Assembly: GCF_008710285.1 (NCBI RefSeq)
Contig: NZ_VYQF01000001.1
Location: 682,001-746,000, forward strand
Length of the DNA stretch: 64,000 bases
Direction of reading: 5' to 3'
Origin: Ginsengibacter hankyongi
GTDB lineage: Bacteria > Bacteroidota > Bacteroidia > Chitinophagales > Chitinophagaceae
In this document: positions 8,642 to 30,036 of the stretch, piece by piece
How the letters are laid out: every line of letters begins with the position of its first letter
How positions within the stretch are numbered: position 1 is the first letter of the stretch
Made by a program: the position numbers and the translations under genes
Notes under the pieces: model-generated
What the model saw: only the letters and a program-made list of their open reading frames with translations
Database searches by the model: none
Told to the model about the DNA's origin: nothing

Positions 8642-8644
8642 ATA

Positions 8645-11582: not shown

Positions 11583-11600
11583 GGAAATTTTTATTTTATC

Positions 11601-13574: not shown

Positions 13575-13613
13575 AAAATATCTTTTTATAAATTAATTGT
13601 ATTGTTCTTTTGG

Positions 13614-13643
13614 AAATCATCCCGCCCGGCGGCGGGATGATTT
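13614..13643 (-). terminator. Strong hairpin between DUF3494 and OmpA genes
   Basis: Perfect 13-bp GC-rich stem (AAATCATCCCGCC with its complement) and a CGGC loop, 28 bases after the DUF3494 stop. Only three Ts close the stem on the minus strand, so it may attenuate rather than fully terminate transcription into the OmpA gene. Confidence 0.65.
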
Positions 13644-13670
13644 GTGTGTGTTGTTAAACTAATAACTTTG

Positions 13671-15518
13671 TTATTGTGGTACGTTAATAGTAGTGTTTAC
13701 CATGGTAACCGAAGCATTTAAGGAAAGCGCTCTGCCATTCAATACTGTCTGAACTGCATTACCGGCAGTAGAGAAAGTAACTCCTGCAGAAGCAATAATA
13801 GTTCCGCTCATAATACCACCGCCTGATCCGTTAATAGTGGCCGCACTACCCACATACCAGTAAACATTTTTAGCCTGGCCCTGGTTTATCATTACGACGC
13901 TGCGGGCTCCTGATGGACCGGCAACACCTACCGTTAAACCGCTTGCTGTCTGGAATATCCATTGCGCATTGGGGTCTCCTTTGGCATCCAGCGTAAGATT
14001 TCCGTTGGTTATTTTAAAAGTGCCGCTGGCAGATTTATAAACACCCGGAGCCAGGGTTAATCCTCCAAGTTCACCTGCACCCGGATCAGTTCCACCCGGT
14101 TTTGAAGCAGGAGAAATACTGTTATAAGCAGTGGTTGCATCTGCCAAAGCTTTAGTTGCTATGGTAAATGAAGTCGCATTTCCCGGCGCCGGAGGAGCCG
14201 TATAAATTCCACCTGTAACATCGCCTACATTCAGCGGGGTTTCTGTATATATATCGTTGTTGGTTCCATCATGGAATCCTGTAATTAAGGTAGAGGCCCC
14301 GGTGGTACCGATGCTTCCATTGTTAATGATGGTATTTAATCCCTGGTTGGTTATCCCGGCATTTCCGCCAAACGCACCAAAACCAGCCGCACTTCCTAAA
14401 AATGACGGAGGCGCTATTGATCCGGTAGTAAAGCTCCACACGTAATTGCTGACCAGTGAATTGCCTGCAAGGTCCTTTGCCCCTGTGGTAACTGTAGCTG
14501 TATAAACGGTACTGGATGCAAGATTAACTGAAGGAGAAAAAGTAACCGTTGTGCCTGAGTAGGCTAAAGTTCCTGAAACCGTGTTTGCTCCCTGTTTCAG
14601 AATAAATGTGGAAGCATTAAGCGTTAAAGGATCCATCGCCTCGCTAAAGGTGGCAGCAATATTTTTATCCAGGGCCACATTGGTAGCATTATTCACCGGG
14701 TCGGTGGAGGTTACCGTTGGTGGCGTTACATCGCCCGTCGTAGTAAAGTTCCATACATACTTGCTTATCATTGCATTGCCGGTAACATCTTTAGCACCGG
14801 TAGTAATGGTACCCGTGTAAGTGGTATTGGCCGTAAGATTAACCGATGGTGAAAAAACGGCCGTAGTGCCTGAATAAGAAACCGCACCATTCACTGAAAC
14901 TCCGCCAAGTGTTGTATTTACTAAGGTAAAGCTGGTGGTAGTGGATAAAGAATCCATTGCCTCACTGAAAGTAGCCGAGATCTTTTTGTTGAGCGCCACA
15001 CCTATGGCTGCATTCGCCGGATCGGTTGAAATAACCGTAGGCGGTATTATATCCGGACCTGCACCGGTTGTAAAGTTCCAAACATAATTACTTACCATGG
15101 CATTGCCCGCGGGGTCTCTTACCCCGGAAGTAACTGTCCCTGTATATTTAGTATTGGGTAAAAAATTATGAGTTGGTGAAAAAGTTGCCGTTGTGCCTGC
15201 ATAAGTAATCACCCCGGCAATTGGCGTCGTTCCGTTGGTTATTGTAAAGGTCAACGAATTGATGGTAGAAGGATTCATCGCTTCATTAAAGATGGCATCA
15301 ATTGTCTTGTTAAGACTTACGCCTGAAGCGGTATCCACAGGGTTGGTTGAAATTACTTTGGGACAGACGCCTAAAATCCCGGGTTCTTCGGTAACTTTTT
15401 TACATCCGGCTGCAAAAACAACCAGCAGTGCTAACATAAACCATTTGTTGAAAATGTGATGGTAGCCTTTACGTGTGCGGATAAGGGTTTTCTCCTTTTG
15501 GAAAGGGTTGTTTTTCAT
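13671..15518 (-). CDS. DUF3494 (ice-binding-like) lipoprotein with three Ig-like repeats
   Basis: Surface or secreted protein of 615 aa. A lysine/arginine-rich N-terminus and hydrophobic stretch end at the lipobox-like VFAAGCKK, so it is probably a lipoprotein. Three repeats of about 105 residues follow, each with STDPAN or similar and FSEAMD, matching bacterial Ig-like (Big_5/SbsA) modules. The C-terminal 220 residues match DUF3494, the beta-solenoid of many ice-binding proteins (GGLTLAPGVYK, LDAKGDPNAQWIFQ). DUF3494 proteins are not all ice-active; adhesion is an alternative. Neighbours are an OmpA protein and a PAS/AraC regulator. Confidence 0.85.
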   Translation of the reverse strand: MKNNPFQKEKTLIRTRKGYHHIFNKWFMLALLVVFAAGCKKVTEEPGILGVCPKVISTNPVDTASGVSLNKTIDAIFNEAMNPSTINSLTFTITNGTTPIAGVITYAGTTATFSPTHNFLPNTKYTGTVTSGVRDPAGNAMVSNYVWNFTTGAGPDIIPPTVISTDPANAAIGVALNKKISATFSEAMDSLSTTTSFTLVNTTLGGVSVNGAVSYSGTTAVFSPSVNLTANTTYTGTITTGAKDVTGNAMISKYVWNFTTTGDVTPPTVTSTDPVNNATNVALDKNIAATFSEAMDPLTLNASTFILKQGANTVSGTLAYSGTTVTFSPSVNLASSTVYTATVTTGAKDLAGNSLVSNYVWSFTTGSIAPPSFLGSAAGFGAFGGNAGITNQGLNTIINNGSIGTTGASTLITGFHDGTNNDIYTETPLNVGDVTGGIYTAPPAPGNATSFTIATKALADATTAYNSISPASKPGGTDPGAGELGGLTLAPGVYKSASGTFKITNGNLTLDAKGDPNAQWIFQTASGLTVGVAGPSGARSVVMINQGQAKNVYWYVGSAATINGSGGGIMSGTIIASAGVTFSTAGNAVQTVLNGRALSLNASVTMVNTTINVPQ

Positions 15519-15635
15519 AATTGCGCTTTAAAATTAATTGTTGTGTTTTTAGTTTTTACACGACAATAAAACGCAAGATGAGGGCAATAAAATCTGTAGA
15601 GGTGTTACATGATTTTGGGAAAAGACTTACATCTT

Positions 15636-17372
15636 TCACACATTTTCCGATGCGGTAAGTTGTTGTTGCTGCACCTGTTTAAAGTAAGATGGCGTGAAAC
15701 CCGTGACCTTTTTGAATTGATTGGATAAATGAGCCACACTGCTGTAATGAAGTTTCGATGCTATTTGTGTAAGGCTCACTTCCCCAGTCATCATTAATTC
15801 TTTCGCCCGTTCAATTTTTTGTACAATAATAAATTTTCGAATGGGAATGCCTTCGGCTTCTGAAAAGAGATTAGAAAGATAGGTATAATCATATTCCAGT
15901 TTCTTACTGAGATAATCAGAAAAGTTTGTTTGCAACTGTTCATCCGAATAATGAACCAAATCCACAATTATATTTTTTATCTTGCCGATAAGCATGGGTT
16001 TCCTATCCTCCATTGGCTCAGGAAAAGTGACTTTCTTTTCTGGTTGCCTGCTAACATTGTGCATAACCCCAATTATACGGCAGGCTTTTCCTTCGTTATT
16101 TCTAATGATGCTGGCCCTGCTAAATACTCTTGAAACAGAACCATCGGCCTTAATGAAGCGATAAGTACTTTCCCAGTAGGTAACAGGTGATGCAATTGCA
16201 TCGTACAGGCTTTTTATAATTGCTTCTTTATCATCGCGGTGAAAGTAATTAGCCCAATCAGCATCCATATTGCCGCCATTGTTTTTTGTTGAATACCCAA
16301 ATAATTCTTCAAATCTATCGCTCAGGAAAAATTCATTCGTTAATAAATTCCAGTGCCATATTCCCTCGATGGAAAGATTAGATGCTTTAAGCAATATATC
16401 GCCGTTATCGTTCTCTACGGTACTTTGATCATCCAGTTTTTTTTCAAGTTCCTGCAGCCTGCTTACATCCTGTATGGCACCGATAAGACGGATCGCTTTT
16501 CCCTGTTCGTCTCTTACAATGCTTGCCCTGCTGGTAGTGGATGCAACCGAACCGTCATAACGTTTGAACCTATAAGAATCGTCCCAGCTTTTATGATCTG
16601 AGCCAAGTGTCGTAAATAATTTTTTTTCAATAGTATTTTTTTCCTCGCGGATAAGGCAACGGCTGAAATGGTTAAAATGCACCGTATTATTTTGCACTTT
16701 ATAACCAAACACTTCTTCAATACTGTCACCTACATAAATTTCGCCGGTTACAATATCCCAGTCCCACATCACATCGTACGATGCTTTGGCTATATATTTT
16801 ATCCATTCATTATTTTCCGCAAGCCTGGCATCAGATCTTTCCTGCGCCACTATAATATTATCTGCAACTATTTTTTCTTTTTTTACTTCAACCTTTTTTT
16901 GCCTGGATTTAGCGAGAATAATATTATCCTCCACTATTTTATCCTTCTTAGTGTCGATTTCTTTTTGCTTCCTGATACTTTGACTCCTATCGGAAATGGT
17001 GGTAATGGCTTTTTCAATTCCGTCTTCATCCATAAAAACCGCAGAACTGATTTCGCAGGGAATCGCCTTGCCGGTTTTTGTTATAATATTTACCAGGGTA
17101 ACAGATTGCCCTTCAGCGTTCCCTTGGCTGAGCATTTTTTTAAAACTGGTCTCATTCGTATCGAAAACAGATGCCCTGCTTTTGGTTAATAATTCTCTTT
17201 TGGAAAAGCCTGTAAGGGTGCACGCAGCTTTGTTGACCAATATTATCTTGCCGCTGCTGACAATAGTAATGATGTTTGGCTGCGCGGCGTTATTAAAAGC
17301 GAGTTGTATCAGAGAGTCGTTATTTACCCCGGCATTGGAATTTTCAGGTGCGCCGGGCTTTTTTTTATTCAT
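15636..17372 (-). CDS. PAS-domain AraC-family transcriptional regulator
   Basis: Cytoplasmic sensor-regulator of 578 aa with no membrane segment. Domains: PAS at about 25-130, a charged linker (130-190) with two related KIVEDNII/KIVADNII repeats, PAS at 195-310 (MWDWDIVTGEIYVGD), PAS at 335-450 (GIWHWNLLTNEFFLSD), and an AraC-type double helix-turn-helix at about 465-570 (SLTQIASKLHYSSVAHLSNQ, then FKKVTGFTPSYFK). It has no histidine kinase domain, so a ligand or redox signal on the PAS domains would act directly on DNA binding. It lies just upstream of the DUF3494 and OmpA genes, which are its most likely targets. Confidence 0.88.
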   Translation of the reverse strand: MNKKKPGAPENSNAGVNNDSLIQLAFNNAAQPNIITIVSSGKIILVNKAACTLTGFSKRELLTKSRASVFDTNETSFKKMLSQGNAEGQSVTLVNIITKTGKAIPCEISSAVFMDEDGIEKAITTISDRSQSIRKQKEIDTKKDKIVEDNIILAKSRQKKVEVKKEKIVADNIIVAQERSDARLAENNEWIKYIAKASYDVMWDWDIVTGEIYVGDSIEEVFGYKVQNNTVHFNHFSRCLIREEKNTIEKKLFTTLGSDHKSWDDSYRFKRYDGSVASTTSRASIVRDEQGKAIRLIGAIQDVSRLQELEKKLDDQSTVENDNGDILLKASNLSIEGIWHWNLLTNEFFLSDRFEELFGYSTKNNGGNMDADWANYFHRDDKEAIIKSLYDAIASPVTYWESTYRFIKADGSVSRVFSRASIIRNNEGKACRIIGVMHNVSRQPEKKVTFPEPMEDRKPMLIGKIKNIIVDLVHYSDEQLQTNFSDYLSKKLEYDYTYLSNLFSEAEGIPIRKFIIVQKIERAKELMMTGEVSLTQIASKLHYSSVAHLSNQFKKVTGFTPSYFKQVQQQQLTASENV

Positions 17373-17530
17373 AGATCCTTGGGAGGTTAGCGTAAGATTC
17401 AGTTGTAAGATAGACTAAGCTGTGTATATAGCAATAAGGTTGCCAATATATCTGCGTTTTCTGATACTTGCTTGCAACAATGGCTGATTTTCTATACAAT
17501 TGTTGCATTCCTGGTAAGCACCTGGTTTAA

Positions 17531-17961
17531 AACGTTGCAGGTTGGTATCCTACCGGGTTCGGCATAAGGCGCTGCCGAAATATCAAACGCTTCCGCGAAT
17601 GGGCTGGCATTAAGCAGGATGCATTGGCAGCAGAACTCAACTGGAGCCAGCAGAAAGTTTCTTTACTGGAACAAAAAGAAGAGATTGAAGATGATGTGCT
17701 GGAAGAAGTGGCTAAAATTTTAAAAGTGCCGGAGGAAGCTATAAGAAACTTAGAAGATTCAAAGCAGTAAACTACTTTAATAGCTTTAATGACGGCAGAG
17801 TAAATCATGGAGCTGTTTACGCGTTTAATAGCAACTTTAACCCTATTGAAAAAGTTATACAGCTATACGATGAAAAAATTGCTTTGGATGAAAGAATGCT
17901 GAAGGAAAAGGGTGATATGATTGAAAAGCTGGAAGAATTATTGTTGAAGGGGAGAGCTTAA
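17531..17961 (+). pseudogene. Broken XRE-type helix-turn-helix regulator
   Basis: The plus strand encodes an XRE-like HTH (WAGIKQDALAAELNWSQQKV, then LLEQKEEIEDDVLEEVAKIL) that stops at 17768-17770. The expected continuation (AVNYFNSFND, then FNPIEKVIQLYDEKI, ending LLLKGRA) is in another frame from 17758 to the stop at 17959-17961, so a single-base shift near 17758 splits the gene. No ATG, GTG or TTG precedes the HTH in frame after the stop at 17528-17530, so the 5' end is damaged too. The intact family is a common small regulator in this group. It converges on the PfkB end of the neighbouring operon. Confidence 0.75.
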
Positions 17962-18007
17962 AGCTGTTTGTCGAGTGTGCCAAGCTAAGAAGCTGAGTTT
18001 AACTTAT

Positions 18008-18037
18008 AGTCAGTTATATCCGTTTTATAAAACCTTG
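18008..18037 (+). repeat. Dispersed 30-bp repeat, copy 2
   Basis: Matches 3481-3510 at 26 of 30 positions. It sits between the broken XRE gene and the end of the five-gene operon. Confidence 0.5.
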
Positions 18038-18089
18038 TTGATAACACTTAAGGCCCTTTGGCAGATAAATTTTTATCTATTTTCCAACT

Positions 18090-19121
18090 CTATACACTGC
18101 AAAATAATTCCGAAAATTGCCTATTTGTAGAAATATCAATTATTGGCGACAGCACTAAATCTTTTTGAGCTATACTTCTTGCTGAAGTGAAGGAATTAAT
18201 TGTCGAAACTAGAGATTTATATTCGTAATAATACATTAAGCCTCTAGCTCCATCATATAAACAATTTAACGCTCCTAGTGCTTGCCCAAATTCCAGTGCT
18301 CTTTCGATAAGGTCGATCTCGGCATTTAAAAGGCCAGTTTGTCCTGCCGAACAAAGGTAACTTATAATGCCAGAAGTGCACCAGTCACCGGCTCCAGCTG
18401 CATCCTGGATATTATTTAAAGAAAATCCTTTAATCGATTTCCAATGATTTGGCTCAGAACTCTTTTTAGTTCTATAAGCCAATCCCTGATCACCAAATGT
18501 TTCTATCTCCAAGAAACACCGAATGAGGTTATATCTTTCCTTATAATCCGGAATACGTTCATGTGAAAATTTTACAATATCAGCTATAGCAAGAAATTTT
18601 TCGAACTGTTTAATATCTCTGTATGATGAAGGTTCAAAATAAATAACTGCACCCTTTGATTTTAAATTCCTTGCAAGTTCCAGAGTACCGGGATTCATAC
18701 GATCAAAATAAAAAACCTGCGGTTTGATGCTCCGCTGTGATACTTCCACTGCAATGGTTTTTGTGATCGGCTTTAATTGTGGAAGCCAGGATTTTGTTTC
18801 AGGATCACGAAACTCGAACCGGTGAACCGGCTTTCCCGTTTTATCTTTAAGTATTCTATGGATAACAATGGGTGTGCTTCCCTCTTTATTAACGGAAATA
18901 TGATCGATATGAATATTCCATCTTTCCAAATCGTGCAAGAGTTCGGCTCCCGCCTGATTATTCGATAGCCTTGCCACTGGGTAACTATTCCAACCAAGAT
19001 AACTTAGTATACTTAGCACGTTACCACACGAGCCGCCGGCAGATAATTTGGGTAAAGTTGTAGGGCTCCCATTTAATATTACATCTAATGCAACCAACCC
19101 TGTGCCTAAACAAGTAGACAT
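18090..19121 (-). CDS. PfkB-family carbohydrate/nucleoside kinase
   Basis: Ribokinase-fold kinase of 343 aa. The N-terminal GGSCGNVLSILSYLGW (about 29-44) matches the first PfkB motif, and DAAGAGD (240-246) is the ATP-site/anion-hole motif with the catalytic aspartate. The family phosphorylates sugars, nucleosides and similar alcohols; the substrate cannot be read from sequence. Last gene of a five-gene operon, 7 bp after the unknown Rossmann-like gene. With a phosphoribosyltransferase, an SIS domain and a HAD phosphatase in the same operon, a ribose- or nucleoside-like substrate is a reasonable guess. The start gives MSTCLGTGLVALD. Confidence 0.85.
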   Translation of the reverse strand: MSTCLGTGLVALDVILNGSPTTLPKLSAGGSCGNVLSILSYLGWNSYPVARLSNNQAGAELLHDLERWNIHIDHISVNKEGSTPIVIHRILKDKTGKPVHRFEFRDPETKSWLPQLKPITKTIAVEVSQRSIKPQVFYFDRMNPGTLELARNLKSKGAVIYFEPSSYRDIKQFEKFLAIADIVKFSHERIPDYKERYNLIRCFLEIETFGDQGLAYRTKKSSEPNHWKSIKGFSLNNIQDAAGAGDWCTSGIISYLCSAGQTGLLNAEIDLIERALEFGQALGALNCLYDGARGLMYYYEYKSLVSTINSFTSARSIAQKDLVLSPIIDISTNRQFSELFCSV

Positions 19122-19128
19122 AATTTAT

Positions 19129-20280
19129 TTATTTTTTATATGGCTCACCAGAGAGCCAAATTAAGAAAAGTTCAGATCGATCCATAATATTTTTTTCAAA
19201 ACCATCGGCATCTATCTCATATCCAGAAGAGTCCACATTTAATATGCCAACCTTGATGTCATTTAGCACTTTAAATTCATAAGCACAAAGTAAAGCGCCA
19301 ATTGACAATAACTTCCTCGAAAACGTCGAGATGACAATATCACATCCTTTAACAACTGCAAGTGTCTCATTGTAATCACGGATTGTTTGACATAGTGTTC
19401 GGTAAACTTCAAAAGGATTTTGCTCTGGCACGTATATAATATTTTGCCCTTCTATATTCAACTCATCAAATAGCAATTGATGATATTCAATCAGCAATGC
19501 GTCAGAGCGTCTTGGATCCCTTGACGGAAAAGGAAGTACAGGACAAATTTCATTAGGTTTAATTTTTTCGTAGGCTGCACTAATCTGGTAAGCGGTTCCT
19601 TCACCAAGGATGGGAAGCCAGATAGTTTGCTTTTTATCATAAGTTAGTTCAGACCCGCCTCTAAAGCCAAATACATAAGATAATTCCGAGTCCGGTTGGA
19701 ATTCCTTGATGTGTGCATCGAGGGTAGCGTTTTCACATGTAATAATAAAAAAATTTTTATCCGAATCTTTATAGAATTGGTCCAACAAGGCCTGAATCTT
19801 ACCTATTAGTGAAAAATAAATGCCACGGGGCAATGCGCTTATATCAACTACAACATCTGTATAATTAGCGAACAATGTGGGGTCATTAAATACATCTGCA
19901 ATGTTTTGATCACCGACTCTTTTTCTCATTTTCCCTTCAGCACTCCACAGCTCAATTTTTTTAGGTGTGATTTTCCCTTCAGGTAAAAAATTGTAAAGAA
20001 TATCAACGTTTTTTTTCACGAGCGGCTTATATTTTTTGGAAGACGAACTTCTGCCCTCATCATATCTTATCAATAAACATTCAATGTCAAGTGCAGGGCA
20101 ATTATTCTTTAATAGTTGTATTCCTTTGTTCATTCTAATATCAAAGCCTTCACCCATTATATACAATAATTTCCTGCCACTTGAACCCTCAAAATATTCT
20201 CTCGCAAATGAAGAAATATCGTCATTACGCAAAAGAACATAGGGGTCCCATTTGAGAGTATGTTTTATTTTCTTGTCCAT
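19129..20280 (-). CDS. Unknown protein with two Rossmann-like segments
   Basis: Not recognised. It is a 383-aa soluble protein without signal peptide or membrane helix. Visible features: a beta-strand followed by glycine loop at 37-46 (LLYIMGEGFD), a conserved-looking strand-loop-helix TDVVVDISALPRGIYFSL (141-158), and a second one near 314-335 (DIVISTF, then SRKLLSIGALLCAYE). Both recall the ligand-binding strand-turn-helix of CARF-like nucleotide sensors, but that is only a resemblance. Its start overlaps the 3' end of the ATPase gene by 16 bases, so translation is probably coupled. It may be the ligand sensor or an enzyme of the operon. Confidence 0.6.
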   Translation of the reverse strand: MDKKIKHTLKWDPYVLLRNDDISSFAREYFEGSSGRKLLYIMGEGFDIRMNKGIQLLKNNCPALDIECLLIRYDEGRSSSSKKYKPLVKKNVDILYNFLPEGKITPKKIELWSAEGKMRKRVGDQNIADVFNDPTLFANYTDVVVDISALPRGIYFSLIGKIQALLDQFYKDSDKNFFIITCENATLDAHIKEFQPDSELSYVFGFRGGSELTYDKKQTIWLPILGEGTAYQISAAYEKIKPNEICPVLPFPSRDPRRSDALLIEYHQLLFDELNIEGQNIIYVPEQNPFEVYRTLCQTIRDYNETLAVVKGCDIVISTFSRKLLSIGALLCAYEFKVLNDIKVGILNVDSSGYEIDADGFEKNIMDRSELFLIWLSGEPYKK

Positions 20281-22139
20281 CGTAAGAGATCATCTGGTTT
20301 TCTAGTTCGCCAACCTCCATAGTTTAAAGGAAGACTAAACTTCACACATAACCAACGGTTGAGATAATAAACATTTTTTTTCTGTCCTTTTTTACCCTGC
20401 ATAGTTTCCTTTACATGCAATAAATTAAAAGCAAGACAAGTATTCAATACAAGTTGCAAATCCTCAAATATTTCATTCGAAAGCCAATCTTCTTCATTAA
20501 TTAGTTGAATAGTGCGAGAAGCGTCAATATAGAATCCAGTCACGCCAGGTGCATAGGGTGCCGTAGGCCTGAATGTTTCGGTAAAGCAGAATAAACAAAG
20601 ATTTTCTAAAAAACGCATGATAAGTGCACTTTCCGGAATCATTTTTTGTAATTCACGCCATTTTTCATTAGCAATACGCCTGATTTCTTTATCCTGATCT
20701 TTAGCGGTTATAGACACATTTGTCATATTCAAATTCAAAGACAACATTCTTTCATAAAGTGGTGCGCCGAAACTTAGAAATTGTTCAATATTATTAGTAG
20801 AAATTCTGGCGAGCATACTCATACCAAAATAATAAGGAATGCCAAATTGTTTACTTAAAAATAACCGTGCCGCAGTTATGATTTTTTCATCAGTTTTTTC
20901 TTCCATTTCCTGAATACTAAGAAAAAAATCCAATGCGAGTTCTGTTTTAGCGAGATTTCGATGAATTAGTATCTCCAGTTCTTTTGCTTTTTGGCAAATT
21001 TCCTGAGGAGTGCCATCTAAATTAAAAAGATAGTCTTTCCATAAATCGAATTTTTGCGTTTCGGCCGTAAGTGCAACAATATTTTTGAAAAGAGTTTCTT
21101 TTGCCTCCTGATAAATATCAGCAAGGTCTAATTCGTTTTGCAAATGCTCTAGGGAAAATTCGACGCCATCCCTGGATTCAGCTGCCCTTTTTATCGCAAT
21201 ATTGCTTAACAATTTTTCAAATTTAATTTCTCTATCCTTCCAGTAATTTTCCAAATTTAATTCTTCATAATCTCTGCCGCGGTTAGTTTTGAGGTTATTT
21301 AGGGCCTCTAACCTCTCGGAAAGCCATAGACTGACGTTGCTCCTGTTTGCAAGTAAATGAGAGATCAGAACGTCTCTTTGTCGGCTGGATAATTTATGAA
21401 TATCATCGAGCATGAAAAGAATGCGTGTACATACAGGCCTGCCATCTACTTTAATGAATTCAGGGCGAAGTGATTCGAAAGAAAACACCTCATTATGCCC
21501 TTCAATCGAAGTTTGTGTCATTGGAAGAAAACTATCAAGTAGTTCGTAAATTGATCTCTCAATGCCTGATGCCCAGTCATAAAGCAATTGACCGTTGCAG
21601 GGGACCTCAATTCTCTTATAAAACAATTTGCTATTGGGATAGCAGAATTCAATCCTTGAAAGATCTTCCGGAAACTGAAGCCGTTTCAGCGAAAGAACCG
21701 AACGTAATGTCGCAGTTATTATCCGACTATTTAATAAAGAATAAAACAAACGTTCTCTATTACCAACATCGATCCCCGCAAAACTCTCAAGTAATTCATA
21801 ATTCCTTGTGAATGTCAGATTTACACCGAGAACATGAATAGTATCATCGCTTACGACTTCAATCTTTTTTAACTTCTTGAAAACTTCTTTAAACTCGTCG
21901 CCTGACTTTCGGTTTTGTAATGTAAGAAGTGAATTTGGATCAAACAACCTCAACAAAGAACTTTTTCCCGCACCTGGAGAACTTCTTATAAAAAACAGTG
22001 TATCCCATAATTTGCCCTCAGCCTGTAACTCAATAAAAAAATCCAGTACCAATGGGCTATATAAGCGCAAAAATCCGGCGTCAGATTCTATGCTTTCTGA
22101 TGCTCGTAACAAAAATGGGTTTCTTATTTTAATGCTCAT
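20265..22139 (-). CDS. ORC/CDC6-like P-loop ATPase
   Basis: Protein of 624 aa with an N-terminal P-loop NTPase. Walker A is SPGAGKSS (54-61), preceded by a hydrophobic strand (TLFFIRS); Walker B is ILFMLDDI (about 240-247), followed by a helix and the sensor-like strand NVSLWLSER. The long C-terminal half is helical and may hold a winged helix (LCVKFSLPLNYGGW near the end), as in ORC/CDC6 or STAND-type switches. Its ATG overlaps the stop of the PRTase gene by 4 bases. In the operon it would be the switch or remodelling ATPase. No DNA-binding target is evident. Confidence 0.75.
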   Translation of the reverse strand: MSIKIRNPFLLRASESIESDAGFLRLYSPLVLDFFIELQAEGKLWDTLFFIRSSPGAGKSSLLRLFDPNSLLTLQNRKSGDEFKEVFKKLKKIEVVSDDTIHVLGVNLTFTRNYELLESFAGIDVGNRERLFYSLLNSRIITATLRSVLSLKRLQFPEDLSRIEFCYPNSKLFYKRIEVPCNGQLLYDWASGIERSIYELLDSFLPMTQTSIEGHNEVFSFESLRPEFIKVDGRPVCTRILFMLDDIHKLSSRQRDVLISHLLANRSNVSLWLSERLEALNNLKTNRGRDYEELNLENYWKDREIKFEKLLSNIAIKRAAESRDGVEFSLEHLQNELDLADIYQEAKETLFKNIVALTAETQKFDLWKDYLFNLDGTPQEICQKAKELEILIHRNLAKTELALDFFLSIQEMEEKTDEKIITAARLFLSKQFGIPYYFGMSMLARISTNNIEQFLSFGAPLYERMLSLNLNMTNVSITAKDQDKEIRRIANEKWRELQKMIPESALIMRFLENLCLFCFTETFRPTAPYAPGVTGFYIDASRTIQLINEEDWLSNEIFEDLQLVLNTCLAFNLLHVKETMQGKKGQKKNVYYLNRWLCVKFSLPLNYGGWRTRKPDDLLRWTRK

Positions 22140-23215
22140 TTTTCCCGATGTCTTGAAATTCTTGGAAATAAACCTTTATATTTTTTGTCTGCTGGCAACC
22201 AAAAAATGGCAATAGAATTATTTGGTGAATTATGATTTAGTACTAAGGGCAATCCACACTCATTAAAGCCTAAATATGGTAACTCATGCTTACCTTTTTT
22301 ATAATGTTCATCCACAACAGTATCATCAAAATATCTTGAAATAAAGCTCATAATAGCTGCGTCTTCAATAATTTTATTCTTGGTCGTATCGTCTATTAGA
22401 AGTAAACAATTGACCGTACAAGGAAATTCAATACCATTTTCTTCTTTCCATTCTGTTATTCCCGCTGTTATATTATCGATTGCATCTGAGGTTGCTATAT
22501 AGAATAAAATATGGACTTCAATTTTATCAAAATCAACTGCTGATTTAAATCCGCTGTTTTCTTCAAAAAATATTTTTTTAAAAATTTTTCCCAATTTACC
22601 TCTACCGCCGGATCTGCAAAAGGTTTTCCCACTCGCAGTAAAATCATCAATCAAAAAAATTGTTTTAAATTTAGCACCCGGCACATCCTTTTCTAAGTTA
22701 TCCAACATGTCCTTTACTTTTTCAGGTGATATGTCATAAGTTGAAATCACCTGCTCATTGTTTAGATAGGCACCCCTTCTAAATTGATCAATTCTTGATC
22801 CGTCGCTTAAGCCAATAAACAACGACATCCGTAAATTATTTTCGTAAGCAAGATCGTTCAGTATTTTTGTAACTAAATATGAGGCTAATCGCTTTTCAGC
22901 CGCTGTTTTTTTAATTAACAAGGGATTTACTTTTTCGGAAAAGAGGATATCAACCAAATGAGCCATTTGCTCACTGGAAACAAAAATAAGATGTTCCCTT
23001 ACTAACTTATAAGCGCTTTTTTTATCTTCAAGGCTATTAAATTGCTGCAACCATTTTACTAGACTTTCAAGAAACCTTGTTCCAGGGGCGAATTGTTGAT
23101 ATTCGTTCCATTTTAGATTAGCCATAGCCTGAAGCAAAGGGCGCTCACAGTCTATTTCGTCCGGCGTCCATTCCATAATCTTAGTTAGTAAGGTTTCTGC
23201 TAATGTAGTTCTCAT
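22136..23215 (-). CDS. Phosphoribosyltransferase-like protein
   Basis: Protein of 359 aa whose centre has the PRPP-binding signature of type I phosphoribosyltransferases: hydrophobic strand, two acidic residues and a small-residue loop in FLIDDFTASGKTF (187-199). Residues 1-120 form a helical N-terminal extension not found in housekeeping PRTases. The C-terminal third has LPYLGFNECGLPLVLNHNSP. Such atypical PRTases next to an ORC/CDC6-like ATPase have, as I recall, been discussed as conflict-system parts, but I cannot verify this here. Overlaps of 4 bases on both sides (ATGA type) show tight translational coupling. Confidence 0.8.
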   Translation of the reverse strand: MRTTLAETLLTKIMEWTPDEIDCERPLLQAMANLKWNEYQQFAPGTRFLESLVKWLQQFNSLEDKKSAYKLVREHLIFVSSEQMAHLVDILFSEKVNPLLIKKTAAEKRLASYLVTKILNDLAYENNLRMSLFIGLSDGSRIDQFRRGAYLNNEQVISTYDISPEKVKDMLDNLEKDVPGAKFKTIFLIDDFTASGKTFCRSGGRGKLGKIFKKIFFEENSGFKSAVDFDKIEVHILFYIATSDAIDNITAGITEWKEENGIEFPCTVNCLLLIDDTTKNKIIEDAAIMSFISRYFDDTVVDEHYKKGKHELPYLGFNECGLPLVLNHNSPNNSIAIFWLPADKKYKGLFPRISRHREK

Positions 23216-25092
23216 AAATCAGTTAATGTAAAGTATCCCTTCTTCATTTTTAGTTTACCAAATAAATATGAAACTGCCTTTTCATCCCTTAAGCCAGGCG
23301 GAAACATATTCCAGCCTGTTTTAGGAAAAGAGGAAACTTCGCCCACACTTAATGCATATTCGTTGGCCAATAATTCATAGTCGTTGCCCGGCCATTGACC
23401 CTTATCTCCAATACATAAAGCTTCAACGGGCAAACCTAGGGATTTACATAGTTTACGGCAATGGTTGAGCATATGGTTTTTGGAAGCAATTTTGCGAGGT
23501 ATGATGTCTATCGAATGCGAAGATTCAACCATGGTGATATCGCTTAAATCAAGCAACATTATTTCATTAAGTAAGATTTCTTTTAAGGAATTCCATTCCT
23601 CGGTCGTCTTTGAACCTAAAGTAAGTTGATTCGGACTTTCATCAGGGTTTATTCCAATTTTAATAAGTTGATTTTTAACAACCACTAAGGAAGGATGCAT
23701 ATGATTACTTTTATTAGGATGTTTCGCGTTTGATAAAGGCGCGATATCACTGCCATTATAATATCCAACCATCACATTCTTCATAAGTTCAGGATCGTTG
23801 TTAAATGCTCTCTCCAAATCCTCCCGTAAAGATTTTCCTCTGCCTGATACAATGCCCAGAACAAAACCTTTTTTTACAAAATTTATCAACAAAGATTTGA
23901 TCTCATCATTCAGACCGACGAAGCGGTTAGCTGATGAACATAACGTTCCATCGTAATCGAAGATTAAACTTCCAAATTTTGTAACACTGATTTTTTTTAT
24001 AAAGTTTAAGTAATGCTTTTCCCAATCCTTCAGTTGTTCATGCGAAAGGTCCGACAGCTTGGTCACTTTAGCTTTTCTAACAATGGCTACATCTTTTGTA
24101 CTTAGGCCTTGATTCGAAATTAACTTCTCGTACCTTAAATGATATATTTTCGAACCATAATCGGGTACGCCAGGCCGACCAGGATCTATGCCTTGTTTTA
24201 TACCATAAAGCCCTATTAATTCCATTGATTGAAGCAATAACTCAATAGTGCCGTCAAAATTTTCGAGATGACTATTAAATACAAGTTTTGGAATTCCTTC
24301 GGGTAGTAGTTGCAATGTTTTAAGACAAAGCTTTTCATCGGCAGGGCATGTCAATGCGATGATTGCTGAGTCCTTCTTTTTATCAAACCATTGATGACGA
24401 CCATGGGCAAAATGGCGGTAATCACTTACAAGAGACGGAGCTAAGCCGGCTTCTGAAAATTTGGATTCCAGGTCGACCGCGACCGCATGGTGAAAAGACC
24501 CATATAGAATAGTAAAGCAGGTATTGTGTCCTATTCGTTTTATGAAATCTATATAGAAAGTCTTGTGAAGAGGTTGAAATTCATTTTGCATAAACTGGTT
24601 AGTAATTGATCTAAACAAAATGACAAAAAATGCAATCAAGGAATTTGTGGCCAGAAAACCATCTTTCCCGTAAGGTGGTTCAAATTCAAAAGTAGTGCAG
24701 CATGAATAATTTTCTGATAGAGCTGCCAATTTACTTTTTTTTCTCATGCAGATGTTGACAATTGAAATCGGTTCACTTTCAATTGCTTTTTTAAATGCAA
24801 ATAAAATGTCAGTATTTCTTCCGCTTGCACTAATAAAAACTAAGTTACTTTTTCTAATAGTGGATTTAGCATAGAATAATTCCAAAGGAGTGATCGCTTT
24901 GGCAAAAATGCCTTTGGCTGTTAGAAGATCAGCAGCATACACACAGGCACTGAATGATCCTCCTGATCCTACTATATAGACAGGATGATGAAATTTATTA
25001 ACTATTTCAGCAAGCTTTGCTAGGTTTAATTTTTTTGCCCATTCTATTGTTTCAGGCAGCTTTCTAATTTCCTTTATAAACGGTTTTCCCAT
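23212..25092 (-). CDS. SIS-domain / HAD-phosphatase fusion protein
   Basis: First gene of the five-gene operon, 626 aa. The N-terminal half is a sugar-isomerase (SIS) fold: VYIVGSGGSFSACVYAADLL (38-57) and LVFISASGRNTDILFAFKKA (84-103), as in GlmS- or KpsF-like phosphosugar binders. After a linker, the C-terminal part is a Cof-type HAD phosphatase: DYDGT (379-383), SGRGKS (416-421), a lysine in PRKIASK near 532-538, and GDKGQWPGND (562-571). The fusion suggests phosphosugar isomerisation or recognition coupled to dephosphorylation. All HAD catalytic motifs look intact. The start gives MGKPFIKEIRKLPE. Confidence 0.85.
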   Translation of the reverse strand: MGKPFIKEIRKLPETIEWAKKLNLAKLAEIVNKFHHPVYIVGSGGSFSACVYAADLLTAKGIFAKAITPLELFYAKSTIRKSNLVFISASGRNTDILFAFKKAIESEPISIVNICMRKKSKLAALSENYSCCTTFEFEPPYGKDGFLATNSLIAFFVILFRSITNQFMQNEFQPLHKTFYIDFIKRIGHNTCFTILYGSFHHAVAVDLESKFSEAGLAPSLVSDYRHFAHGRHQWFDKKKDSAIIALTCPADEKLCLKTLQLLPEGIPKLVFNSHLENFDGTIELLLQSMELIGLYGIKQGIDPGRPGVPDYGSKIYHLRYEKLISNQGLSTKDVAIVRKAKVTKLSDLSHEQLKDWEKHYLNFIKKISVTKFGSLIFDYDGTLCSSANRFVGLNDEIKSLLINFVKKGFVLGIVSGRGKSLREDLERAFNNDPELMKNVMVGYYNGSDIAPLSNAKHPNKSNHMHPSLVVVKNQLIKIGINPDESPNQLTLGSKTTEEWNSLKEILLNEIMLLDLSDITMVESSHSIDIIPRKIASKNHMLNHCRKLCKSLGLPVEALCIGDKGQWPGNDYELLANEYALSVGEVSSFPKTGWNMFPPGLRDEKAVSYLFGKLKMKKGYFTLTDL

Positions 25093-25156: not shown

Positions 25157-25351
25157 TTATAAAAATAAATCCCCAAAAAAATAAAGTCGGTCAAAATAAT
25201 GTCCGTTTTTATGATGCGTATTCGTACTGCCGGCATAATGTCCCCCGTGGCTTTTGGTATGGTACCCTCCGCCGTAATATGGGTGCCTTGTTTGCCCAAA
25301 ACTCATGGCAGTAATAAACATCATCGCTGCCAATAGCATTAGCTTTTTCAT
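25157..25351 (-). CDS. Small secreted His/Gly-rich protein
   Basis: Secreted peptide of 64 aa from the MKKLMLLAAMMFITAMSFGQ start, chosen over an ATG 30 bases upstream because it begins a textbook signal peptide cleaved after FGQ. The mature part is rich in His, Tyr and Gly (HPYYGGGYH, SHGGHYAGS). Small proteins with this composition are common in Bacteroidota and of unknown function. The C-terminus (FDRLYFFGDLFL) is hydrophobic and unlike the basic, polar end I would expect; a shifted frame there ends in YKHTK, so a frameshift is possible. Confidence 0.55.
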   Translation of the reverse strand: MKKLMLLAAMMFITAMSFGQTRHPYYGGGYHTKSHGGHYAGSTNTHHKNGHYFDRLYFFGDLFL

Positions 25352-25381: not shown

Positions 25382-25807
25382 CTTCCCGGTAATACGGGAT
25401 GTATTGTTTAAACAAGAAACACAGGGGAAGGAATTACAGTTAGAACTATAAATCTACACATTATCACTTAAAAATGAAATAATTAATTCAACTGCAAAGA
25501 CTCAGGTGGTATACTAACAAAGCACTCCCGCCGTTATAATTATACACCCCTCACAATAAACTTCCCCAACCCTTCGTTACTTCCCGATATGGCCTGCGGG
25601 CATCGTCGTTTGAAAGGTGTATGATAGTTTTTCGGTACTTCTTCGGTAGTTGTTCGGTCGCAATAACCGAATAACTAATATCCTTCTTCCGCCTGTCTTT
25701 TGTAAAAGGCAGGGCACAGGCAGGTACTAAGGGTATAAGATGCAATAATAACAGAGATATTAATGAAGGATAAAGATTGATTTTATATAATTTAAAAATA
25801 AAAAATT
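25382..25807. other. Intergenic region, no gene seen
   Basis: About 425 bp. A 64-codon minus-strand open frame (25551-25745) has no recognisable content. There is a small hairpin near 25384-25399 (TCCCG, six bases, CGGGA) and an imperfect one near 25695-25714 (CTGTCTTTT against AAAAGGCAG). The promoter for the DUF6266 gene should lie at the right end, but I see no clear TAnnTTTG there. Confidence 0.4.
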
Positions 25808-26449
25808 ATGGCAACAATTCCTAACGGCATCCTGGGCGGCATACAAGGCCGGGTGGGTACTGTAACCGGCTATAACAGGTATGGCATAGACGTAATTCGC
25901 TCTGCAAAAAACAGGGGCACGGTAAAACCTACGGCAAAAAGACTGGCCCAGCGCAGCAAGATTACCGTATGTAATGCTTTTGCAAAAGCATTTGCCGGCA
26001 AAGGCTTTTTTACCAAAACATTCCCGGCCTTTGGCCATACCGGCTCCGGCTATAACCGTGCGGTAAGTGCACTCATGAGCCTGGCGCTGGTACCTTCGGA
26101 AGATGGCGTAACTATCAGCTACCCGCTGGTATTGATATCAAAAGGTACGCTGCCGCCTGCGCTGAACGCGGTAGCTGCAGCAACGGATGCAGGTAATATA
26201 CAATTCACCTGGACGGATAATACCGGCACGGGTACTTCCAAAAAAACAGACAAGGCCATACTGGTTGCTTACTTCCCCGCAACAAACGAAGTAGTATACA
26301 GCTTTGACGCAGGAACAAGACAATCCGGCAATGCAATTCTTGAAAATCCCAACAGGCAAGGGCAGCTTGCTGAAACATGGATGGGCTATTTAAGCAATGA
26401 CGAAGACGACGCAGCCTGCAGTGTGTATACAGGGAGTTTGGTGTTGTAA
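25808..26449 (+). CDS. DUF6266-family protein
   Basis: Protein of 213 aa with the hallmark N-terminus of this Bacteroidota family: MATIPNGILGGIQGRVGTV followed by GYNRYGIDVIRS and a PTAKRLAQRSK segment. The second half, from about residue 110, looks like a beta-sandwich (NIQFTWTDNTGTGTSKKTDKA, AILVAYFP). It has no signal peptide. Function unknown; paralogous families are often expanded in related genomes. The gene is visibly richer in G+C than its neighbours. It stands alone, divergent from the small secreted gene and convergent with the CDP-sugar operon. Confidence 0.75.
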   Translation: MATIPNGILGGIQGRVGTVTGYNRYGIDVIRSAKNRGTVKPTAKRLAQRSKITVCNAFAKAFAGKGFFTKTFPAFGHTGSGYNRAVSALMSLALVPSEDGVTISYPLVLISKGTLPPALNAVAAATDAGNIQFTWTDNTGTGTSKKTDKAILVAYFPATNEVVYSFDAGTRQSGNAILENPNRQGQLAETWMGYLSNDEDDAACSVYTGSLVL

Positions 26450-26494
26450 TATAAGGTTGTGCAGACTACATAGTTTACTACCGCATTCGAAGCG

Positions 26495-27475
26495 CTACAA
26501 TTTTTTCATCAATAAGAACAATTCTCTTCCAACGATTGAACGATCCAAAAGCTTTGCGATTTTGATGCGGAATTCTTTTTCGGGTATAAAATCCTGGTGC
26601 GGTACCAAACGGGCAGCATAGCTCTTATACTTGTCAATCAAATTTTTTACAGTAATCTTTCTTTGGTCACGGGGAGTTTTAAGTACCCGGTGGGCAAGGG
26701 CCTCGCAGAAGTAGAGCAGAAATCTTTTTCCATATCTTTCCAAAACCTGCTTTATTTTTTCGTTCTTGCCTCCCTGCTCAATTATAAATTCAAGGAACTT
26801 ATCAAATGCCTGCTGGTAGGCTTCACCGTTAGTTACCTTTGAGACACTGTTGTGAATCCTGTATTTAAAAGTGACGTCAAAAGAAGTGGCTTTGTAAGAC
26901 AGGCCCATGAGGCCAATCCAAAGTGCAAAATCAGCAAAGATCAGATTATTGTAGACGGGGTTAATGCCGCCAAAATCGTCATAATCCCCGGAGCGCATCA
27001 TATAGCCTGTTCCGGTGCTTTCAATAAGATTACACATATAAAGCGCCAGGAACTCATGCGCCTGCTGAACTTCATCCATCGGAAGGCAATTACGCAATAT
27101 CTTACCGTCTCCATCAATGTAATGATAGTGGCTTTGGTACAGGCTTGCGTTGGGATGTTTTTGAATAAGATCAGCCATTACCTGCAGGTAATTTGTATTC
27201 AAAATATCGTCGTGGCCTATTAACGTAATGAATTCATTCTTTGGGACCGACTTTATTCTTGCCCAATTCTCTTCTATCGATAAAGGTTTTTCTGATTGAT
27301 GTATAACAATCCTAGGATCGTTCAGCGATTGAAGCCATTCCAATGTACCATCAGTACTGCAATTATCAAGCACTATCAAATTAAAATCCTGCAGCGATTG
27401 TGACAGAATGCTATCAACACATTCTTTTGCATATACGCCGCCGTTCTTTACTGGTAATATAATGCTGAATTTCAT
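26495..27475 (-). CDS. Glycosyltransferase family 2
   Basis: GT-A fold inverting glycosyltransferase of 326 aa. N-terminal SIILPVKNGGVYAKECVDSIL and VLDNCSTDGTLEWLQ (nucleotide-binding DNCSTDGT), then the metal-binding aspartates in IGHDDILNTNYLQ, define the family. Last gene of the eight-gene CDP-sugar operon, 25 bp after the preceding glycosyltransferase. It probably adds a sugar, perhaps the CDP-linked deoxyhexose product, to a surface glycan at the cytoplasmic membrane. Confidence 0.88.
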   Translation of the reverse strand: MKFSIILPVKNGGVYAKECVDSILSQSLQDFNLIVLDNCSTDGTLEWLQSLNDPRIVIHQSEKPLSIEENWARIKSVPKNEFITLIGHDDILNTNYLQVMADLIQKHPNASLYQSHYHYIDGDGKILRNCLPMDEVQQAHEFLALYMCNLIESTGTGYMMRSGDYDDFGGINPVYNNLIFADFALWIGLMGLSYKATSFDVTFKYRIHNSVSKVTNGEAYQQAFDKFLEFIIEQGGKNEKIKQVLERYGKRFLLYFCEALAHRVLKTPRDQRKITVKNLIDKYKSYAARLVPHQDFIPEKEFRIKIAKLLDRSIVGRELFLLMKKL

Positions 27476-27500
27476 TCTAAAAATTTCAGAACTAATAAAA

Positions 27501-28466
27501 TCAACGATGGTATTTGATTAAAAATAGCGGTTTTTTAAGAAGAAACCCTATTTGCATAAGTTGAAACTTCGGGGAAACCGGCTTCATAAAGGAAAGGCTC
27601 ATAATCTTATGCGAGAAATCATTGATGTCCTGAAGTGTTTCCTGGTTGTAATTTTTATAAGTAAAATATTTTTTTAGAATAAAATAGTTGTTCAGGAACC
27701 AATTATGGAGATGTTTCTCCAGCGCATTTATGCCATTCTTTTTATAAGAACTTATATCAAAATGAGACGTGACAAACTGGTAAAAACCAACGCATCCTTT
27801 GTAATACAAATCAAAATGGCTTTTTGAAAAATTTTGATCGTGAGACGAAAGAGAGCCGTAGACATTGTTTATAAATACGCCGCCCCTGTCTTTACCACAC
27901 AAAACCAATAAGGCATGATCGGCAAAATGCGGGCTCCCAAAATCGGGTATACCACCAAATCCTTTAACAGTGGCTGTTTCCAATATACAACTTGACCATA
28001 AAATTGTTTCAGTTTTACCGGGATCTAACAACTCAAATACATAATTTTCCTTCTCAAATATTTCTACCTGTTTACCCGGGACATTTTTCCTTTTACAACC
28101 AAGATAAGCGGGATAACCGGGATGTAAATCGATAATACCCTTAAATTCTTTGAGCATATTCTTGTCAACATGATCGTCGTCAGTAAGCATCACAATATAA
28201 GGGGTCGTAGCCTTTTCGATAGCCCTGTTGAAACTTAGGATCATTCCCAGGTTTCGCTCATTATGGTAATACAAGAATCTATTATCATTAAATTCTCTTA
28301 CAATTCCTTCAGCGCTTGCTTCAGGATCATTGTCGCAAATCACTACATTAAAGTTTGGAAGCGTTTGTTGAGAAAGAGAATTTAATTGTTCTTTTAAAAA
28401 GCCGGGGCGCTTATAAGTACTTATGCAAAAGGTAACCCATGCCTGACTTTCCTGTACTCGTGCCAT
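27501..28466 (-). CDS. Glycosyltransferase family 2
   Basis: Second GT-A glycosyltransferase in the operon, 321 aa. The motifs are TFCISTYKRPGFLKEQLNSL, ICDNDPEAS (donor binding) and MLTDDDHVDKNML (DXD-like metal site). Its ATG overlaps the stop codon of the CmcI-like gene by one base (TAATG), so translation is coupled. The sequence is diverged from the neighbouring GT2, so the two should use different donors or acceptors. Confidence 0.87.
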   Translation of the reverse strand: MARVQESQAWVTFCISTYKRPGFLKEQLNSLSQQTLPNFNVVICDNDPEASAEGIVREFNDNRFLYYHNERNLGMILSFNRAIEKATTPYIVMLTDDDHVDKNMLKEFKGIIDLHPGYPAYLGCKRKNVPGKQVEIFEKENYVFELLDPGKTETILWSSCILETATVKGFGGIPDFGSPHFADHALLVLCGKDRGGVFINNVYGSLSSHDQNFSKSHFDLYYKGCVGFYQFVTSHFDISSYKKNGINALEKHLHNWFLNNYFILKKYFTYKNYNQETLQDINDFSHKIMSLSFMKPVSPKFQLMQIGFLLKKPLFLIKYHR

Positions 28467-29200
28467 TATTTTACTCTTTTTAAATAACCTTCAGGGTTCA
28501 CACTTATCAACAGCTTATTATCTATTGCTTTATCAACAATAAAATCATCGTTATTTTTTAGAAATTCATGAACGGCGGTTTTAGGATTGTTTCCAACTCC
28601 CCAGAACCTGTTGGGCAGGTAACTTTCGGGCAAATCTTCAACTATTGTATCGAAAACCACGATATAAGAACCCGGCGTTACAAACGGCGCATACAAATTT
28701 AATTCAGCCAAAACATGCTCATGTGTATGATTGGAATCAAGGCACACCATAACAGCTTGCCTGCCTTCAGCAAATGGTTTTACCCTGCTAACCATTTCTT
28801 CGGTTATTGAAGAACCTTCCAGCATGTGTATTCTTTTATACATCGGATGTTCCTCAATCTTCCTTTTGTTATGTTCTCTTATATCAATATCGATGCCGAG
28901 CACTTCGCCCTTTCCTATTAATTCTAACAATGATGCGTAGTAAATGATGGAGCCACCATGCGCAATGCCGGTTTCAATAATAAGATCAGGTCTTATTTCC
29001 CAGATTAATTCCTGCATGGCTATCATATCCTGCGGATATTGAATGATAGGTCTTCCCATCCACGTAAAGTTGTAGGAATACTTTGCACGATTCGATTCAA
29101 CATTGAAGGCATGGGCCGCTTCCTTAAGCGCAACATTTTCACCATTCGCTTTAATCAGTTGCACCTTTTCTTCTTCAAATTCCCGGATAGGATCTTTCAT
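28466..29200 (-). CDS. CmcI-like methyltransferase/hydroxylase family protein
   Basis: Protein of 244 aa of the cephalosporin hydroxylase (CmcI) family, which has a class I SAM-binding Rossmann fold. Signature segments are RPDLIIETGIAHGGSIIYYAS (SAM loop), VLGIDIDIREHN (acidic ribose-binding residues) and VMVCLDSNHTHEHVLAEL. Within sugar operons such proteins often act as sugar O-methyltransferases. It overlaps the upstream reductase gene by 26 bases. The exact substrate is not evident; methylation of the operon's deoxysugar is the simplest reading. Confidence 0.85.
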   Translation of the reverse strand: MKDPIREFEEEKVQLIKANGENVALKEAAHAFNVESNRAKYSYNFTWMGRPIIQYPQDMIAMQELIWEIRPDLIIETGIAHGGSIIYYASLLELIGKGEVLGIDIDIREHNKRKIEEHPMYKRIHMLEGSSITEEMVSRVKPFAEGRQAVMVCLDSNHTHEHVLAELNLYAPFVTPGSYIVVFDTIVEDLPESYLPNRFWGVGNNPKTAVHEFLKNNDDFIVDKAIDNKLLISVNPEGYLKRVK

Positions 29201-30035: not shown

Positions 30036-30036
30036 T

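Follow-up and report, generated by a model that had tools for sequence, protein, structure and literature searches.

A candidate mobile immune operon of five genes in Ginsengibacter hankyongi joins a PRTase-CE phosphoribosyltransferase, an ORC/CDC6-like ATPase and a CARF6-family protein to two sugar-phosphate enzymes

CARF domains are known to read the cyclic oligoadenylates that Cas10-type enzymes produce. Phosphoribosyltransferases (PRTases) of the PRTase-CE family have a predicted role as nucleotide-targeting immune effectors, and PRTase-CE/ORC-CDC6-like conflict systems were reportedly named by Nicastro et al. in NAR in 2023. A study on retrons lists PRTase and winged-helix (WH) genes as the typical effectors of type III-A1 (PMC12548924). 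According to two further articles, NADAR proteins reverse guanine ADP-ribosylation as a tested antitoxin and are additionally suggested to act on riboflavin intermediates (PMC11543638, PMC11125620). In a 2026 paper on defence prediction, the proteins assigned to defence include some with NADAR domains and some with PRTase domains, the latter possibly of the PRTase-CE family (PMC13092281). Here, a five-gene operon within a 64,000-nucleotide stretch of the Ginsengibacter hankyongi genome (contig NZ_VYQF01000001.1, positions 682,001 to 746,000; this whole stretch is referred to as the window) was analysed in comparison with these systems. In the order of transcription the operon encodes a SIS-HAD fusion protein, a PRTase, an ORC/CDC6-like ATPase (ORC), a CARF6-family protein (CARF) and a PfkB kinase.

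On balance, the operon is probably a mobile immune system directed against phages or plasmids, in which ORC and CARF would sense infection and the PRTase would fire. The observations behind this interpretation are five intact open reading frames (ORFs) with catalytic motifs, the near-obligate linkage of the genes, their assignment to families, the relatives that occur with retrons, NADAR or methylases, and the co-evolution of the set in modules. From these we infer defence itself and the roles within it: the ATPase and the CARF-family protein would form the switch which detects infection, and the activated PRTase, with a nucleotide or a nucleic-acid base as its target, would form or cleave an N-ribosyl bond by chemistry of the phosphoribosyl pyrophosphate (PRPP) type, so that growth stops. 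SIS-HAD and PfkB would interconvert a phosphosugar and thereby either set the level of the CARF ligand or clean up the PRTase product, and the NADAR protein added in many Pseudomonadota copies would perhaps serve as an antidote. A preliminary description of the locus had proposed a signalling or conflict module; conflict or defence is the better reading in view of the relatives linked to reverse transcriptases (RTs), NADAR and methylases, the CARF family and the patchy, sometimes plasmid-borne distribution. Its suggestion that the PRTase could make a messenger while the ATPase gates the response has been revised, as the PRTase is more likely an effector and CARF rather than the ATPase alone is the likely reader of the message, given that the gene 4 protein belongs to the CARF family.

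In order to assess linkage, 84,980 species genomes were scanned with the PRTase alignment, which confirmed 105 relatives; the counts given here use the best 80 of these 105 loci, and gene presence was scored per locus with purpose-built family models. ORC and PRTase were present in all 80 loci, SIS-HAD in 78, CARF in 76 and PfkB in 74. The loci missing SIS-HAD (L052, L054) or CARF (L011, L032, L040, L079) all adjoin contig ends, as do those missing PfkB (L011, L032, L057 with 1.2 kb remaining to the contig end, L079, L085), apart from L076, which is truly without PfkB. The genes were also scored as present in L017, whose SIS-HAD is divided between two ORFs, and in L046, where the ORFs of SIS-HAD, ORC and CARF are short. 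Since some loci are near-copies of each other (L026/L027, L039-L042/L044, L058/L059), fewer than 80 cases are independent. Among plasmids the same linkage was found in 17 of 17 records, and the view of the preliminary description that the five genes act as a unit, which neighbours not conserved together would have undermined, is thus upheld by a near-obligate set.

The gene order of the window was found in 53 of the 80 loci and in one further locus with SIS-HAD split in two ORFs. In 12 loci the SISHAD-PfkB pair is followed by PRTase, ORC and CARF, and a 13th locus of this type ends before CARF; the pair is divergent in 3 loci and located after the trio in 2, and in the other 8 the gene set is cut, except in L076. 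Correlations of the distance matrices were highest for CARF-ORC (0.90) and SISHAD-PfkB (0.88), followed by PRTase-CARF (0.79) and PRTase-ORC (0.78), and ranged from 0.51 to 0.72 across the two halves. These correlations and the swaps in gene order say that the operon consists of two modules, one being the trio of PRTase, ORC and CARF and the other the pair of SIS-HAD and PfkB. On the Sinorhizobium plasmid NZ_CP088118.1 (L177, positions 8002-20179), two PRTase and two CARF places were detected by tblastn; together with the gene sizes they are consistent with a single SISHAD-PfkB pair flanked by two PRTase-ORC-CARF trios, along with NADAR and a helix-turn-helix (HTH) gene, which hints that two trios can share one sugar module. 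In L051, L052, L054 and L065, of which three come from Bacteroidales and one from a bin labelled Gastranaerophilales, an AbiEi/AbiEii-type gene family (identified by Pfam on L051) sits between CARF and PfkB.

The PRTase of the window matches the Pfam family PF24390 (PRTase-CE) with an E-value of 9e-27 and 95 bits against a cut-off of 27, as well as the PADLOC PRTase_III-A models (E 1e-17). It carries the PRPP-loop-like motif IDDFTASGKT and the C-terminal motif HNSPNN..W..LFPR, and D190, D191, F192 and G196 are kept in 41 of 41 aligned rows; the search for solved relatives yielded a single orotate PRTase at E 0.61. In a sample of 395 genomes of the phylum, PRTase-CE exceeded the cut-off in 21 genomes, with weaker matches in many more, and reached at least 50 bits at 17 places, namely the five-gene operon and 16 others. 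Eight of these 16 loci (L137-L144) adjoin a retron-type RT, called by Pfam in three cases and by similarity to those three in the rest, and PADLOC assigned both of the two RT-linked loci submitted to it to RT_III-A. NADAR is the next gene in five loci (L131-L135; two calls by Pfam, three by a purpose-built profile), two are fusions, to an AAA domain in L130 and to an HD domain in L136, and one (L129) is an operon of DNA methylase, PRTase, ORC and CARF6. The five PRTase-CE-NADAR pairs stand alone in five Bacteroidota-phylum genomes and are candidate minimal toxin-antitoxin systems; in L132 the pair is followed by a GmrSD type IV restriction gene.

The PRTase family of the window is related to four RT-linked PRTases by profile comparison (E 7e-14), with shared DD and PNN..W motifs. 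The operon differs from type III-A retrons, which combine RT, PRTase and winged helix, in that it is without the retron RT: three retron-linked RT queries found no match in the window or in any of the 89 loci records searched, and no relative of ORC, CARF, SIS-HAD or PfkB was found in the eight RT-linked loci. Because of the RT-linked relatives at 8 of the 16 loci, and of PRTase/WH genes being described as retron effectors in PMC12548924, the PRTase is more likely an effector than a messenger maker.

For the ATPase, a match to PF24389 (E 9e-23, 81.2 bits against a cut-off of 27) was accompanied by a Walker A motif (SPGAGKS) and a Walker B motif (LDD); G56, G58, K59 and D245 are kept in 41 of 41 aligned rows and D246 in 39 of 41. 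PRTase and ATPase thus both exceed the curated cut-offs of the families after which the PRTase-CE/ORC-CDC6-like conflict systems are named, whereas SIS-HAD and PfkB are extra in the five-gene operon. The window ATPase scores 81 bits, compared to 312-383 bits for three full-length PF24389 matches elsewhere in the phylum sample, in which seven genomes carry PF24389 at E 1e-10 or better. L174 (ORF of 1252 aa) and L175 (855 aa) have a DNA-methylase-like ORF in the same stretch as the ORC-CDC6-like protein.

A sister arrangement of the operon was found in L129, where the genes for an N6/N4 DNA methylase, a PRTase, an ORC-CDC6-like ATPase of full length (382 bits) and a CARF6 protein (E 9e-101) follow in a row. 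A relative of the L129 ATPase occurs in 10 plasmid records, of which four were opened (L145, L146, L147, L150) and contain the same set, with ORC, methylase and ThyX in pieces in L150. The sister operon shares the PRTase-ORC-CARF6 order and the tight gene junctions, and the PADLOC CARF6 profile PDLC01922 matches both the window CARF and the sister CARF6. In contrast, the N6/N4 methylase, joined by ThyX in three of five loci, replaces SIS-HAD and PfkB, neither of which was found near the five sister loci opened. As the DNA methylase holds their place in the sister operon, this analogy suggests a self-protecting role for SIS-HAD and PfkB. The thymidylate synthase ThyX thus lies in or near a restriction-like operon in three of the five sister loci (L129, L145-L147, L150).

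The gene 4 protein, earlier taken for an unknown Rossmann-like protein, was matched by the PADLOC CARF6 profile PDLC01910 over residues 10-382 of 383 (E 1.2e-109). No Pfam match and no fused recognised effector domain were detected in it, and a sequence search for solved relatives returned chance-level matches only. The 41 aligned rows contain 7 invariant and 32 nearly invariant columns, among the conserved ones D47, D142, D146, S148, N176, R257, D260, E286, S318 and K323. This exceeds the expectation for a passive regulator and, judged from sequence, the protein may also be an enzyme.

Possible sources of a cyclic oligonucleotide ligand were sought in 42 operon-bearing genomes, comprising 41 of the 80, chosen for long contigs, and that of the window; some of these are incomplete bins. 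The Cas10 palm was strong (at least 85 bits) in 4 genomes and weaker in 8, and was over the cut-off in 7 of 42; the weak matches are read as GGDEF-like because the control search also rings in E. coli. SMODS was over the cut-off in 10 genomes, so that 15 of 42 have one or the other over cut-off and 27 have neither. The genome of Ginsengibacter hankyongi is among these 27, with no Cas10 palm and no SMODS over cut-off, other synthases not having been searched. Type III CRISPR or CBASS can therefore be ruled out as a general supplier of the CARF ligand, which is so not in general the product of a Cas10 or SMODS cyclase, other synthases being outside the search. The operon resembles type III CRISPR-Cas CARF effectors in its CARF-family protein, but differs from them in the lack of a fused effector domain and in the rarity of a strong Cas10 palm.

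The sugar-phosphate pair was assigned by a combination of Pfam and profile searches. The HAD half of SIS-HAD matches PF08282 (E 4e-5) and the SIS half matches PF01380 weakly and below the cut-off (E 0.026); the SIS reading is strengthened by the match of a profile of 41 relatives to the glucosamine-6-phosphate deaminase NagB-II (8eol, E 5e-7), with which a Glu and a His-Gly align. For the HAD half, the resemblance is to sugar phosphatases of the HAD-IIB type, for example sucrose-phosphatase (E 3e-4), and its DxDGT motif is conserved among the 41 aligned relatives, D379, D381, T383, D563, N570, D571, E209, E214, H230 and G231 being kept in all 41 rows of the fusion protein. The kinase matches PF00294 (E 6e-11) and carries the motif DAAGAGD, of which D240 and the GxGD residues G243, G245 and D246 are likewise kept in 41 of 41 rows; its nearest structures are fructokinase, the PH1459 sugar kinase and ketohexokinase. 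A SIS protein, a PfkB-type kinase and a HAD protein together make the heptose-1-phosphate for ADP-heptose, a pathway with a SIS of the GmhA kind, a GmhB-type HAD and a nucleotidyltransferase. The operon does not have this set: its SIS is nearest to NagB-II/GlmS types, its HAD is nearest to HAD-IIB types, and none of the five proteins matched a nucleotidyltransferase. A free-standing metabolic SIS-HAD was ruled out as well, as no full-length match was found outside the operon in the 395 phylum genomes and 72,556 plasmids. SIS and PfkB are also combined in fructosamine breakdown (FrlB/FrlD), where a sugar-nitrogen bond is undone. The pair may control the CARF ligand or may reverse the PRTase product, and the bond breakage by FrlB/FrlD would fit the latter role.

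A NADAR gene lies near the operon in 17 of the 80 loci, all from Pseudomonadota by record title, and also in 3 of 6 opened plasmid loci and on the IMG/VR contig L089. It is accompanied by an HTH regulator gene, and these two are the only genes that recur inside or against the operon. NADAR thus stands beside this PRTase family in two settings, in copies of the five-gene operon and in the L131-L135 pairs. The arrangement recalls the DarT1-NADAR toxin-antitoxin system in placing a possible antidote next to a ribosyl-transferring enzyme, but the enzyme belongs to the PRTase family and is not an ADP-ribosyltransferase, and a genome search found no NADAR in the window's genome. NADAR is therefore optional.

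The distribution of the operon is broad and patchy. The tree of 41 rows (the window and 40 loci, with phyla by record label and many records being metagenome-assembled genomes) covers ten phyla, namely Bacteroidota, Pseudomonadota, Planctomycetota, Acidobacteriota, Myxococcota, Chloroflexota, Armatimonadota, Nitrospirota, Thermoplasmatota and Nitrososphaerota, two of which are archaeal; such recurrence of the set, and in most loci of its order, is not due to chance. The operon occurs in 1 of 195 genomes of the family and 1 of 20 of the genus, and PRTase and SIS-HAD were found in full length in 1 of the 395 phylum genomes, the window's own, with partial matches of PRTase in 3 more and of SIS-HAD in 28 more. 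Among 72,556 plasmids, SIS-HAD was present in 17 records, all with PRTase and CARF within about 8 kb and 8 of them typed conjugative; PRTase and CARF were each present in 18 records, the extra ones being an orphan PRTase (L148) and a 25% CARF match (L149). At least 5 of the 80 loci lie on contigs over 1 Mb. L089 carries PRTase-ORC-CARF-PfkB with NADAR, the contig piece beginning at the PRTase.

Conjugation, restriction-modification (R-M) and AbiE genes were found near some operon copies. For a tally of the flanks, 138 ORFs were drawn from a pool of 572 in the flanks of 73 loci, with six near-copy loci excluded, and 126 from 169 control ORFs (15 stretches); after removal of one flank and nine control ORFs at stretch ends, 137 and 117 were used, and 25 families were shown per tally. 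The flanks contained type IV secretion system coupling protein (4), NADAR (4), T2SSE/VirB11-like (3), AbiEi (2), GmrSD (2), Eco57I (2) and resolvase (2), and the control stretches UvrD (3), GGDEF/EAL (3) and HSDR_N (2). The contrast is suggestive only, given the limit of 25 families per tally, the NADAR matches that are due to the operon itself and the origin of some of the conjugation genes in related islands. The check for defence-island enrichment proposed in the preliminary description was therefore answered qualitatively: mobile and defence families do occur in the flanks, but the control stretches hold R-M genes as well.

Several results weigh against an immune function. None of the five genes encodes a nuclease, a pore or another classical killer, and a pure defence system would not usually include two near-obligatory sugar enzymes. 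PRTase and CARF were found in 0 of 50,697 phage records, the window's genome is without NADAR, and R-M genes are not confined to the flanks (HSDR_N in 2 of 117 control ORFs). The concatenated tree clusters by phylum, with 10 label changes against 21.3 in shuffles; mobility is therefore claimed within groups and on plasmids and not as frequent between phyla. Among the comparisons with relatives, the window CARF and that of the sister operon match weakly as profiles (probability 13%, E 0.002), five of the seven ORC-CDC6-like places in the phylum sample (L172-L176) have no PRTase, CARF or SIS-HAD relatives nearby, and the NADAR-linked PRTases match the window PRTase family in motif only (profile E 0.013), despite belonging to the same Pfam family.

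Three other explanations were considered. In one, which is unlikely, the operon would serve the biosynthesis or salvage of an unusual nucleoside or sugar nucleotide, in which SIS isomerises, PfkB phosphorylates, HAD dephosphorylates and the PRTase joins base and ribose-phosphate, with CARF and ORC only regulating. In its favour are the intact motifs of the four enzyme-like genes, the co-evolution and near-obligatory presence of SIS-HAD and PfkB, and the metabolic precedent of the SIS/kinase/HAD triad in ADP-heptose synthesis. Genes of the efflux type could be of use to a producer of metabolites and are found repeatedly (AcrB-like in 8 loci, HlyD in 4), but they lie kilobases off (median 3.5 kb), while only NADAR and HTH genes recur at the operon itself. 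The company kept by PRTase-CE at the 16 other loci, consisting of retron-type RTs, NADAR, AAA and HD fusions and the methylase operon, also speaks against biosynthesis, as do the very patchy distribution and the fact that full-length SIS-HAD was never seen apart from the trio in the phylum genomes and plasmids.

A toxin-antitoxin or plasmid-maintenance module is distinctly unlikely; it would consist of a PRTase toxin restrained by ORC-CARF and counteracted by NADAR and SIS-HAD/PfkB as its antidotes, and would stabilise mobile DNA instead of providing immunity. Carriage on plasmids, the PRTase-NADAR pairs, the HTH regulator of the NADAR variant and the AbiE-like genes inserted in four loci are in line with it, but seven kilobases with two sugar enzymes would be costly for simple addiction, at least five copies lie on contigs over 1 Mb and the PRTase family is retron-linked. 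Very unlikely, and drawn by analogy to the sister operon, is a modification-linked restriction system in which ORC would scan DNA, the PRTase would replace the nuclease and SIS-HAD/PfkB would replace the methylase, supplying a sugar mark or sensing or stripping sugar-modified phage nucleotides. The same trio does occur with an N6/N4 DNA methylase in five sister loci, three of them with ThyX in or near the set, but the five-gene set contains no glycosyltransferase or DNA-modifying enzyme, and SIS, HAD and PfkB enzymes act on free sugars in known cases. A mobile immune system with the PRTase as effector thus remains the interpretation favoured here.

The positions of the genes and of neighbouring features are given in the table. 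The junctions between the operon genes are, from 5′ to 3′, overlaps of 4, 4 and 16 bases and a 7-base gap, and re-derivation of the ORFs reproduced exactly the positions, overlaps and gap given before. None of the five proteins was over the cut-off of any NCBIfam model (0/5); a known housekeeping pathway was thereby ruled out, in agreement with the earlier statement that no such pathway uses this set. The window contains no Rfam family and no tRNA, and the signal of a promoter and terminator scan was no better than in shuffles. The small frame directly upstream of SIS-HAD is rich in His and Gly with a signal-peptide-like start and may be due to chance. The 213-aa ORF adjoining the operon falls within 768 bp that recur at 95% identity on another contig of this genome, with weaker copies at other places, and so belongs to a repeated gene family. 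The regions past the 3′ end and directly past the operon on the other side were read from translations.

Table. Positions within the window of the five operon genes and of adjoining features.
Feature	Position	Strand	Size
Gene 1, double-SIS-like sugar-phosphate domain (N-terminal) fused to HAD-IIB-like phosphatase (C-terminal)	23212-25092	-	626 aa
Gene 2, PRTase-CE family phosphoribosyltransferase, proposed effector	22136-23215	-	359 aa
Gene 3, ORC/CDC6-like P-loop ATPase	20265-22139	-	624 aa
Gene 4, CARF6-family protein, proposed ligand sensor	19129-20280	-	383 aa
Gene 5, PfkB/ribokinase-family sugar or nucleoside kinase	18090-19121	-	343 aa
His/Gly-rich frame upstream of gene 1	25157-25351	-	64 aa
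ORF within the repeated stretch	25808-26449	+	213 aa
Repeated stretch	25760-26527		768 bp
PAS-like repeats and AraC-type DNA-binding end, past the 3′ end of the operon	15636-17372		
Glycosyltransferase and sugar-nucleotide genes, surface polysaccharide type	26495-33656		

The component families are already known from Pfam and PADLOC. No description of the five-gene operon was recognised in the literature searched, which left most subscription papers outside and is not proof of absence. What is added here is the five-gene combination, its near-obligate linkage, its two-module behaviour, the repeated link to NADAR and the finding that no cyclase is obligatory. In a more specific version of the immune interpretation, which is doubtful at present, SIS-HAD and PfkB would make or remove a phosphosugar second messenger that is not a cyclic oligoadenylate and is read by the stand-alone CARF, and ORC would license a toxin that depends on PRPP and marks nucleotides or nucleic acids with an N-phosphoribosyl group, which NADAR would erase where present.

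A CARF-family protein is here locked to sugar-phosphate enzymes, and as 27 of 42 genomes are without a Cas10 or SMODS match over cut-off and the candidate makers share the operon, the CARF ligand can be sought directly. Moreover, the neighbourhood of PRTase and NADAR allows a guess for the chemistry of PRTases of the retron III-A type, namely that an N-ribosyl bond is written by the PRTase and cut by NADAR. If true, the cyclase-free CARF pathway would represent a new class of CARF signal and a new reversible base modification in immunity.

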